Shown: positions 29,228-33,675 of the stretch, in pieces | How the letters are laid out: every line of letters starts with the position of its first letter | How positions within the stretch are numbered: position 1 is the first letter of the stretch | Notes under the pieces: generated by a model | Seen by the model: the letters and a program-made list of their open reading frames with translations, nothing else | The model's database searches: none | Told to the model about the DNA's origin: nothing | Program-made: the position numbers and the translations under genes | Source: Syntrophomonas sp. DTU018 | Lineage (GTDB): Bacteria; Bacillota; Syntrophomonadia; Syntrophomonadales; Syntrophomonadaceae | DNA: 64,000 nt | Reading direction: 5' to 3' | Assembly (NCBI GenBank): GCA_001513155.1 | Contig: LFSR01000051.1 | Span: forward strand, 1-64,000

Positions 29228-30847
<1,620 letters not shown>

Positions 30848-30862
30848 TTCCTGCATATAACC

Positions 30863-30886
30863 AGGCGCCATCTGCGGATGGCGCCT
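30863..30886 (+). repeat. Duplicated terminator hairpin, left copy (groEL)
   Basis: 24-bp hairpin (stem AGGCGCCATC/GATGGCGCCT) after groEL. It is identical to 31039-31062. The left copy has no T-tract because the 152-bp element follows it; the right copy keeps the TTTGTTTT tail. Confidence 0.85.
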
Positions 30887-31038
30887 GATAGTGTTAAAAA
30901 AGTTGCTAAAAGAGATCGCCACGTCGCTACGCTCCTCGCGATGACATACCAAAAGGCCATCTTATGTGTCATTGCGAGCCCCGGAGGGGCGTGGCAATCT
31001 CGAATGTCTAACCGCTAATATACTTCTTTGACAGTCTG
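30887..31038 (+). mobile_element. MITE-like element with two REP hairpins, copy 1
   Basis: 152 bp, about 95% identical to 33499-33649. Two REP-like hairpins in opposite orientation occupy 30912-30946 and 30967-31001. The ends form an imperfect inverted repeat: the right end read in reverse, CAGACTGTCAAAGAAG, resembles the left end GATAGTGTTAAAAAAG. The element is flanked on both sides by a perfect copy of the groEL terminator hairpin. No coding capacity. Confidence 0.8.
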
Positions 31039-31068
31039 AGGCGCCATCTGCGGATGGCGCCTTTTGTT
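31039..31068 (+). terminator. groEL terminator (right copy of duplicated hairpin)
   Basis: Same 24-bp hairpin as 30863-30886, followed by TTTGTTTT. This is the functional-looking terminator. The 288-bp gap from groEL to the convergent glnA holds only the two hairpins, the element and the glnA terminator. Confidence 0.85.
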
Positions 31069-31074
31069 TTCCGC

Positions 31075-31108
31075 AAAAAATCCCTGGTGAAGGAACACCA
31101 GGGATTTT
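31075..31108 (-). terminator. glnA terminator (bidirectional)
   Basis: TCCCTGGTG (31081-31089) pairs perfectly with CACCAGGGA (31096-31104). Six A residues on the plus strand to its left give a T6 tail on the glnA strand, and TTTT follows on the plus strand. Confidence 0.85.
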
Positions 31109-31135
31109 CTCTATTACTCTACAGTATAAGTACTC

Positions 31136-32569
31136 TTATAGGTCATAGTATAATTCAAACTCCAGGGGATGGGGCTGATCCAGCACTCGCCGGGATTCCT
31201 TGCGTTTGGCCTCCAGCCAAACTTCGATCAATCGCTGGGGGAATACCCCTCCCGCCAGCAAAAAGTCATGGTCTTTTTCCAGGGCATCCAGGGCTTCATC
31301 CAGGGTACGGGGCAGGCTCTTGATCTTGGCTTGCTCCTCGGGAGGCAGGTTGTATAGATTAACGTCATAAGGCCCGAATCCTTCGGCAACAGGGTCGATT
31401 TTGTTCTGAATACCGTCCAGGCCGGCCATCAGCATAGCCGAATAAGCCAGGTACGGGTTGCAGGTAGCATCGGAGGAGCGGAATTCAAAGCGTTTGTGTT
31501 CAGGAGCCTTGGCATAGGCGGGAATTCTGATAACAGCACTGCGGTTAGCGGTAGCAAAGCATATGCTCACCGGTGCTTCATAGCCAGGTACCAGGCGTTT
31601 GTAGGAATTGGTGCTGGGATTGGTAAAAGCCAGCAAGGCAGGTGCGTGTTTCAACATGCCGCCTATGAAGTAAAGAGCAGTTTGGCTTAGGCACGAGTAA
31701 CCGTTGGGATCATAAAAAACCGGCTGGCCGTTTTTGAACATATGGATATGAACGTGCATACCGCTGCCGGCTTCCCCGTACAAGGGTTTAGGCATAAAAG
31801 TAGCCGTTTTGCCCTCTTGGAAAGCCAAATTTTTAACCAGATACTTAAGGAGCATGGTTTTGTCGGCCATTTCCCGCATACCGCCAAACTCAACCTCTAT
31901 CTCTATCTGTCCCGGACCTCCCACTTCGTGATGATGATATTTCACCGCGATGTTGTTTTCTTCCAACAGGGTGCACATGCGGGAGCGCAAATCATACAGG
32001 ACATCATGGGGCGGAGTGATATGATAGCCGCCTTTGAGGGGCACTTTATAGCCCAGGTTCTGGTACCCGCTCTCCCCGCTGTTCCAAATGGCCTGCTCGG
32101 CATCAATGGAAAAGCCGCTTTTATGGGGCAAACACTGGTAATCCACATGATCAAATACATAGAACTCGAACTCCGGGCCTATCCGGATTTCATCGGCGAC
32201 CTGCAGGTCCTGCATATATTTTTCAGCCTTATTGGCAATATTGCGAGGGTACTGATCAAATGGGTAATTATGAGGCTCGGCGATTACGAAGACATCTCCA
32301 ATCATGCTTAAGGTAGGAACTTTGGAAAAAGGATCATGAACAGCAGTAGTTATATCAGGTATGAAGACCATATCGCTCTTCTCTATGGGGGCATATCCGT
32401 AATTGGATCCGTCGAACCCGATTCCGTATTCAAGGGTTTCAGGGGTGAAACGTTTCACAGGAAGGGTAAGGTGGCGCCACCTGCCCAGCAGATCAATCAT
32501 CTTAAAATCGATCATCTCGATCTGCTCATCTCGGCAGTACTCCATAACTTCGTCGTAGGTGCTAAACAC
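31136..32569 (-). CDS. glnA: Glutamine synthetase, type I
   Basis: ATP-dependent synthesis of glutamine from glutamate and ammonia. 477 residues. The catalytic regions are visible: GPEFEFYVFD, the EVGGPGQIEIEVEFGGM stretch, NPSTNSYKRLVPGYEAP and NRSAVIRIP. Near residue 400 it has NLYNLPPEE, the form of the adenylylated-tyrosine loop of GSI-beta enzymes, rather than the short GSI-alpha loop of Bacillus. No adenylyltransferase gene is in the window. GTG start 9 bases after GGAGG. It is divergent from the LolA-like gene. Confidence 0.92.
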   Translation of the reverse strand: MFSTYDEVMEYCRDEQIEMIDFKMIDLLGRWRHLTLPVKRFTPETLEYGIGFDGSNYGYAPIEKSDMVFIPDITTAVHDPFSKVPTLSMIGDVFVIAEPHNYPFDQYPRNIANKAEKYMQDLQVADEIRIGPEFEFYVFDHVDYQCLPHKSGFSIDAEQAIWNSGESGYQNLGYKVPLKGGYHITPPHDVLYDLRSRMCTLLEENNIAVKYHHHEVGGPGQIEIEVEFGGMREMADKTMLLKYLVKNLAFQEGKTATFMPKPLYGEAGSGMHVHIHMFKNGQPVFYDPNGYSCLSQTALYFIGGMLKHAPALLAFTNPSTNSYKRLVPGYEAPVSICFATANRSAVIRIPAYAKAPEHKRFEFRSSDATCNPYLAYSAMLMAGLDGIQNKIDPVAEGFGPYDVNLYNLPPEEQAKIKSLPRTLDEALDALEKDHDFLLAGGVFPQRLIEVWLEAKRKESRRVLDQPHPLEFELYYDL

Positions 32570-32761
32570 AAGTATAAGCCTCCTTTGCCTTATACAAAAT
32601 ACGTGGAAATTATAGCAGATGCCTGTTTTGAAATAAAGTATTTTGAATTAGGTATGCTGTATCCATGGAATAATATTCTAGCAGCTTTACGGTAATATCC
32701 CCCCACCCCATCTAATAATAATGTATTACTTGAGACTCCAGACAGGTGTCAACCTTAAGGG

Positions 32762-33475
32762 GTGAGAGTTATAAACAGGAAGCGCTGGATTGCTTTAGCT
32801 GTTATCGCTTTGCTGGCATTGGGAGCAGCCCTGGCTTATCAGCCTGCTAAGGATTATTATGTAAAATCCAAGCTGGACCCGCAGGTCGAGCTTGACAACT
32901 CTATTAAAAAGATGGCACAGGTACAGAGCTACCGTTATGTGCTCAAATCAGGATTTACCGTCGAGGGAAGGGAGGAGGTGATAAGTCAGGTAGAAGGTGA
33001 GAAAGAGCAGGGAAATACTCATTTAAAGGGGGAGATGGTACACACACCGGTTGATATTTATTATATTGACCGTACCATTTACAATTATGACTCCTTCTCC
33101 AAAAGATGGCTGGTGATCGACAGCGGCACTGCCAATTCGGAAGAACTGCTGATATCAGAACTAAATCCTCTGTCCAACTTCAGGTTTAAGAATGTTACAG
33201 CAGTCAAAAAAGTAGGGTTTGAACCGGTAGATGGTACGGAATGTTTGGTGGTAAGCTGTCAGCCTTCTGTAGAGAGTCAACTGTTAGAAAGCCTTTGGCA
33301 GGACTTTGATTACCAGATATGGATCGACTATAAGCAGCAGGTTATCCGCAAAGCTACTCTGAAGGCAGTAAACAAGCAGAACCCTACCACCCGTTTGAGC
33401 ATAGCCGTGGAATTCTATGATATCGACCAGCCTATTAAAATCAAACCGCCGGATATTACGCAAGCAGTTAATTGA
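32762..33475 (+). CDS. Exported LolA-like protein of unknown function
   Basis: 237 residues with an N-terminal signal anchor (about 7-25, WIALAVIALLALGAALAY). The remainder is beta-rich with the outline of a LolA/LppX-like half-barrel: the MAQVQSYRYVLKSGFTVEG opening, IYYIDRTIYNYDSFSKRWLV in the middle, and YQIWIDYKQQVIRKATLKA. Such domains bind lipids. GTG 32762 is the only in-frame start, but it lies one base from the AAGG site, so the true start is uncertain. It stands alone. Confidence 0.6.
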   Translation: MRVINRKRWIALAVIALLALGAALAYQPAKDYYVKSKLDPQVELDNSIKKMAQVQSYRYVLKSGFTVEGREEVISQVEGEKEQGNTHLKGEMVHTPVDIYYIDRTIYNYDSFSKRWLVIDSGTANSEELLISELNPLSNFRFKNVTAVKKVGFEPVDGTECLVVSCQPSVESQLLESLWQDFDYQIWIDYKQQVIRKATLKAVNKQNPTTRLSIAVEFYDIDQPIKIKPPDITQAVN

Positions 33476-33476
33476 C

Positions 33477-33498
33477 CGCCGGGGTGAAAGCCCCGGCT
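33477..33498 (+). repeat. Duplicated terminator hairpin, left copy
   Basis: 22-bp hairpin with arms GCCGGGG/CCCCGGC and loop TGAAAG. It is identical to 33650-33671 and separated from it by the 151-bp element. Confidence 0.85.
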
Positions 33499-33649
33499 AG
33501 ATTGTAAAAAAGGTTGCTAAAAGAGATCGCCACGTCACTACGCTCCTCGCGATGACATACCAAAAGGCCATCTTATGTGTCATTGCGAGCCCCGGAGGGG
33601 CGTGGCAATCTCGAACGTCTAACCGCTAATAGACTTCTTTGACAGTCTG
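33499..33649 (+). mobile_element. MITE-like element with two REP hairpins, copy 2
   Basis: 151 bp, about 95% identical to the copy after groEL. REP hairpins lie at 33523-33557 and 33578-33612. The left end AGATTGTAAAAAAGG and the reversed right end AGACTGTCAAAGAAG match at 12 of 15-16 positions. The element lies between perfect 22-bp copies of a different terminator hairpin. Confidence 0.8.
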
Positions 33650-33675
33650 CGCCGGGGTGAAAGCCCCGGCTTTTA
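33650..33675 (+). terminator. Terminator of the LolA-like gene (right hairpin copy)
   Basis: GC-rich 22-bp hairpin followed by TTTT. It is the same hairpin as 33477-33498. Confidence 0.75.

Follow-up and report, generated by a model that had tools for sequence, protein, structure and literature searches.

The two nearly identical repeats located downstream of groEL and of a nearby 237-aa gene in the window (the whole 64,000-nucleotide stretch of DNA analyzed here) are most probably MITEs derived from, or mobilized by, a clade of IS1182 elements that uses a hairpin of almost any sequence as its target, a reading to which we assign a probability of roughly 0.87. Sequence comparisons show ends shared with IS1182 elements, a whole-hairpin duplication of variable length in MITEs and autonomous copies alike, and single hairpins at empty sites.

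Two elements between duplicated hairpins

The features of the two loci, with coordinates in the window, are as follows.

29228–30847, + strand: groEL, 5′ of MITE copy 1 (Cpn60_TCP1, 1e-75)
30863–30886, + strand: groEL terminator hairpin, left copy; 24 bp, without T-tract; identical to 31039–31062; single in sister genomes
30887–31038, + strand: MITE copy 1; 152 bp; imperfect TIRs; REP-like palindromic modules in the interior
31039–31062, + strand: groEL hairpin, right copy; T-tract follows; predicted working groEL terminator; terminator-like call at 31038–31063
31136–32569, − strand: glutamine synthetase gene, convergent with groEL (Gln-synt_C, 2.1e-117)
32762–33475, + strand: 237-aa gene, 5′ of MITE copy 2; no Pfam match; orthologues in 9 of 10 relatives searched
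33477–33498, + strand: locus-2 hairpin, left copy; 22 bp, without T-tract; identical to 33650–33671
33499–33649, + strand: MITE copy 2; 151 bp; left end decayed (TAGATTGTAAAAAAGG); 96.6% identity to copy 1
33650–33671, + strand: locus-2 hairpin, right copy, with T-tract; terminator-like call at 33651–33670

The first-pass annotation had placed two near-identical elements between identical hairpins at these positions, and this is confirmed: both hairpins at the groEL locus are the same 24 bp (AGGCGCCATCTGCGGATGGCGCCT), both at locus 2 are the same 22 bp (CGCCGGGGTGAAAGCCCCGGCT), and the identity between the two MITE copies extends across 147 bp. The TIRs are imperfect, as had been noted, with GATAGTGTTAAAAAAGT and CAGACTGTCAAAGAAGT agreeing at 12 of 17 positions. 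The T-tract does stay with the right hairpin copy at each locus, also as described, and a terminator scan calls the right copies, and not the left, terminator-like. The 209-nt stretch preceding the T-tract is predicted to fold as a single long hairpin (−109.5 kcal/mol, z −9.8); since each hairpin is a palindrome, its left and right copies are able to pair with each other as well. There is no Rfam match to a known structured RNA at the window locus.

The interior of the MITE consists of palindromic modules of ~35 bp (30910–30946 and 30966–31003; GAGATCGCCACG...CGATGACA and TGTCATTGCGAG...GGCAATCTC), and these are found singly, in many places, in other genera of the family (L097–L101 and related loci). 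Because the modules stand alone elsewhere, they seem to represent an independent REP-like repeat captured by the MITE.

Copies in the genome and their flanks

The genome containing the window (G000) is a 2.56-Mb draft in 59 contigs with 99.9% completeness, and about 50 related elements are present in it, mostly of 152 bp with some of 114–450 bp. A BLAST search of this genome with the 152-bp element gives 43 matches, and the end motif GASTGTCRAARAA has 85 matches compared with one for the reversed control; it was the end-motif search that revealed the additional members of 114–450 bp, which share the same ends. The element has the attributes of a MITE, namely a length of 152 bp, about 50 copies without a transposase gene, TIRs and target duplication, with an autonomous relative present only in other genomes. 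Its earlier description as a non-autonomous mobile element holds.

We aligned the 45 bases on each side of 48 automatically found end-pairs, and in 42 of them a duplicate adjoins the element, either flush with it or no more than 5 bases away. The control at shifted positions has a median of 5.5 and a 99th percentile of 16, its upper tail being contaminated by adjacent elements. One of the six misses is a false pairing, and the other five are decayed or rearranged MITEs without a clear duplicate. With 43 BLAST matches, end-motif counts of 85 against 1, and duplicates at 42 of 48 end-pairs, the element-plus-hairpin pattern is far beyond chance. The flanks of further copies were a check proposed in the first-pass annotation, and most carry the hairpin duplicate, in agreement with its claim that the whole hairpin is duplicated.

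The duplicates have several features in common. First, in all but a few of the 42 the duplicated sequence is a locus-specific hairpin, different at each site. Second, the duplication is 15–35 bp long (median 25 among 40 scored copies) and its length tracks that of the hairpin. Third, it is centered on the dyad, such that the number of unpaired 5′ bases minus unpaired 3′ bases is zero in 30 of 42, and it stops approximately at the start of the A/T tracts, which stay single even where pairing is possible; the first base is A in 23 and the last base T in 31 of the 40. Fourth, the two hairpins of a pair are still identical at 22 of 40 sites, and no inverted right-hand copies were found among the 40 MITEs in which these were sought. 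Finally, in none of the 40 cases does the element disrupt a spanning ORF of 100 codons.

A T-tract on the right and/or an A-tract on the left is present at 35 of 40 sites, and neither is clear at the remaining five, so that insertion is directed to hairpins and does not depend on a T-tract. The earlier proposal of a terminator hairpin as target therefore stands as regards the hairpin, which is usually that of a terminator, but not as regards the terminator as such. We infer that termination probably continues to work and that insertion is probably neutral. The 40 scored copies also have an orientation bias, with the T-tract next to the right end of the element in 20 and opposite in six.

Empty sites in sister genomes

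In two genomes of the same genus (G001 and G003, with groEL orthologues 95% and 92% identical, respectively), the groEL locus has a single hairpin, AAGCGCCATCTGCGGATGGCGCTTTTT in G001 and AAAGCGCCATCGCAAGATGGTGCTTTTT in G003, and the element is absent (L157, L158). Locus 2 of G003 (L188) is likewise free of the element and has one hairpin; G001 carries an element at the same hairpin, but the contig stops within it. In the comparison with sister species recommended in the first-pass annotation, each of the two window loci thus has an element-free counterpart with one hairpin, from which it follows that insertion makes the duplicate and that the hairpin pairs were not pre-existing. Nor does the pattern agree with IS1272-type insertion, in which the stem-loop is removed and not duplicated: empty sites have one hairpin and filled sites two. 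That nearly every copy is flanked by two hairpins might suggest that tandemly duplicated terminators came first and that the element inserted or recombined between them, but this is extremely improbable given the single hairpins of the sister species at both window loci, the unlikelihood that some 40 unrelated hairpins were duplicated beforehand, and the fact that duplicated hairpins without an element were not seen at the two loci examined.

At locus 2 (33477–33671 compared with L187 and L188) the hairpin loops differ between G000 and G001, and the two G000 copies are identical to each other; this could reflect either separate re-insertion in the two genomes or concerted evolution of the hairpin copies.

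Relationship to IS1182 elements

There are no matches to PF01609 (DDE_Tnp_1) or PF13751 in the window's own genome, and no homologue of the transposase of the clade described below was found in its 59 contigs. The MITE is therefore now either an orphan or driven from outside; with a genome in 59 contigs, the driver transposase may be missing, lost or unassembled. A search for a transposase with matching ends, as the first-pass annotation had advised, succeeded in other genomes, where it is of the IS1182 family, and failed in the element's own.

Among the PF13751 elements of relatives that were examined is a 1.5-kb element in G050, a genome of the same phylum and another family, with the ends CAGACTGTAGACAAATGGCC and CAGCTTGTCGACAAAG. 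A 24-bp palindrome (AGCAGAAGTGAAATCACTTCTGCT) stands on both sides of it, and around a second copy the hairpin is 20 bp long. The transposases of G050 and G045 contain PF05598 (DUF772) and PF13751 (DDE_Tnp_1_6) domains and score 474 and 450 bits, respectively, against NCBIfam NF033551 (IS1182; cut-off 270). With the G050 transposase as query against 399 genomes of the phylum, close relatives were found in 15, and 18 intact IS1182 copies in seven genomes (G050, G081, G377, G329, G244, G065 and G181) have exact hairpin duplicates of 17–34 bp. Hairpin duplicates also flank plasmid IS1182 copies of Sutcliffiella horikoshii (30 bp), Peribacillus pB (24 bp) and Cytobacillus firmus (35 bp), and a copy on an Enterococcus faecium linear plasmid (L276, ~25 bp); another E. 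faecium copy (L277) lacks one.

The ends of these elements are shared with the MITEs. The MITE right end CAGACTGTCAAAGAAGT agrees at 15 bases with an IS end in G244 (CAGACTGTCAAAGAACC), and the MITE ends CAGACTGTCAAAGAA and CAGACTGTCGAAAAA are matched in the autonomous IS1182 elements of G244 (L203, L213, L220) and G112 and in a fragment in G005. A second MITE type starts with CAGACTGTCGAAAAA, which is also the start of the G112 IS and of the G005 IS1182 fragment (L247); in G005, which belongs to the window's own family, a hairpin adjoins this end, and the transposase of the fragment starts immediately downstream. G019, of the same family, has a decayed IS1182 ending in CAGAGTGTCAAAGAACCC next to a hairpin, and this end matches the CAGAGTGTCAAAGAAGTC end of several MITEs. 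Scanning GTDB genomes with CAGACTGTCGAAAAAGGCC identified, in MAGs of Oscillospiraceae and of other Bacillota, elements of 193–222 bp flanked by 20–28-bp hairpin duplicates, and MITEs with one shared end and 20–28-bp hairpin duplicates are present in other Clostridia (L141, L142, L144, L147 and L151). Because its ends are shared with IS1182 elements and autonomous copies make the same hairpin duplication, the window element is assigned to the MITEs of a hairpin-duplicating IS1182 clade.

The first-pass annotation had looked instead to IS1549/IS1634, IS4-like transposons that make long and variable target duplications regardless of structure. The duplications here are indeed long and variable, but they coincide with hairpins, the element's own genome lacks a PF01609 match, and the autonomous partners score 24.7 bits against the IS1634 model (cut-off 100) compared with 474 for IS1182. 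Coincidence with hairpins is not known for IS1634-type duplications. This reading is accordingly among the least probable, and membership of IS1549/IS1634 is ruled out by Pfam, NCBIfam and the shared IS1182 ends.

Scarcely more probable is that a single-strand HUH transposase (of the TnpA-REP or IS200/IS605 type) moves the element as a REP/BIME-like unit. The interior ~35-bp modules, which are REP-like and occur alone in other genera, would fit such an origin, but the TIRs match those of DDE elements, and the host hairpin is duplicated at both ends of the element, with the empty and filled sites documenting the duplication. HUH transposition is not known to leave a target duplication of this kind; nor is one expected of a REP/BIME unit with a RAYT, and here it is present. 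An IS200/IS605-type mover is rejected on the anatomy of the element.

Not all copies are bounded by matching hairpins. MITE copy L027 has unlike hairpins at its two ends, as do the IS copies L197 and L200 and that of Peribacillus pA; the two different hairpins that bound L197, L200, L273 and the MITE copies L027 and L037 probably result from recombination between copies at separate loci. In the G112 IS (L204) the loops of the left and right hairpins are reverse complements of each other, which looks like a flip of the palindrome.

Phylogeny and target habits

In a tree of 23 IS1182-type transposases, which does not include IS1272 itself, six proven duplicators lie on one side of a single branch (support 87/96) with three elements of other target habits opposite. 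The separation of duplicators from other target habits is only suggestive, as some of the joins are on long branches. The IS1182 copies of G023 and of G027 (a third type) have different ends and no hairpin duplication, and the target mode thus varies within the family. Another IS1182 type in G027 (L259–L262) is bordered on its two sides by the arms of a GGGGACGGTTCTTTTGCC repeat in inverted orientation, an arrangement that resembles interruption or replacement of a stem-loop. The IS1182 elements of the same genus as the window (G001, G002 and G003) are unlikely drivers; they do not share the MITE ends and are placed elsewhere on the tree.

A possible mechanism of insertion

The stagger of the cut made by a DDE transposase is normally constant, and so is the length of the resulting target duplication. 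On linear DNA, such a cut cannot yield duplications of 17–35 bp that track the length of the hairpin. We propose that an IS1182 DDE transposase takes a DNA hairpin of nearly any sequence as its target, and that the element is placed at one foot of the hairpin with a complete hairpin left on either side. In supercoiled DNA the palindrome may be extruded as a cruciform, the transposase would join the element ends to both 5′ feet, and gap filling would copy the entire hairpin arm. Since the 5′ feet of the cruciform arms are close together at any arm length, the length of the hairpin would set that of the duplication. Strong hairpins are probably most often those of intrinsic terminators, which may be why the element piles up behind genes, and because the T-tract is outside the duplication one complete terminator would survive.

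The same element and family could act on a hairpin in single-stranded DNA, formed at replication forks or in the course of transcription, and not on a cruciform. The orientation bias (20 to 6) suggests that the two feet of the hairpin are not equivalent, and a transposase acting at the replication fork would give the same product. However, for both strands to be joined around one hairpin they must be close, which a cruciform provides directly, and both orientations of insertion occur; the single-stranded substrate is a real but unlikely alternative to the cruciform. It is an evenly balanced proposition that a broad IS1182 clade targets the four-way junction of an extruded cruciform, with the hairpin determining the duplication length and terminators serving as a universal safe harbor, and that MITEs which duplicate terminator hairpins have arisen from this clade across Clostridia.

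Tens of MITEs, together with autonomous elements from several bacterial families, have duplications whose length follows the hairpin, and this is natural evidence for structure-guided transposition. Landing in terminators with one left whole shows a route to about 50 copies at little apparent harm, and the pattern suggests a way to sequence-independent insertion at terminators.

Comparison with known systems

Group IIC introns, retroelements with an RNA ribozyme, also insert at intrinsic terminator hairpins; they share the safe-site strategy, but the hairpin is not duplicated and the enzyme is unrelated. ISfinder reportedly gives 0–60 bp for the direct repeats of IS1182 elements, and the 15–35 bp observed here would fit. 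One study of IS1272/TnSha1 (PMC4923244) cites Siguier (2015) for the choice of palindromes and terminators by IS1182 elements.

That choice is already described for ISCbo5 (PMC3098183) and for IS1272/TnSha1 (PMC5678879, PMC4923244). ISCbo5/ISBma2 of Clostridium botulinum group III and C. novyi belongs to the IS1182 family, as does the source of the window MITE, but it is autonomous, and the main text of that study describes no MITE and states no hairpin duplication (PMC3098183). The staphylococcal IS1272/TnSha1 resembles the window MITE in that hairpins, often terminators, are recognized by structure and not sequence and in that the target inverted repeats vary in size, but the stem-loop is deleted or replaced without duplication, whereas the MITE duplicates it (PMC5678879, PMC4923244). 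Duplication of the whole stem-loop does appear in the model figure of Wan et al. (2017; PMC5678879) as a hypothetical pathway b, an alternative to IS1272 replacement, and the cruciform joining and fill-in proposed here would correspond to it. With duplication lengths that follow the hairpin in natural copies, the unproven pathway b becomes a testable rule for which the substrates are ready-made.

The ISEfa7-type IS1182 of E. faecium has a transposase 54% identical to that of G050 and, unlike the MITE, is autonomous. Its plasmid copy L276, with the ends CAGACTGTAGACAAA, duplicates its hairpin as the MITE does, in contrast to L277. In the open-licence literature we found no papers naming ISEfa7 with IS1182, none on duplicated terminators, and no description of the MITE form, of exact whole-hairpin duplication as a rule of the clade, or of its spread, although the novelty would be smaller if ISfinder entries already note whole hairpins. 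Naville and Gautheret (PMC2965389) took the terminators upstream of ISBma2 transposases to be part of the IS; it is possible that these are copies of the host hairpin.
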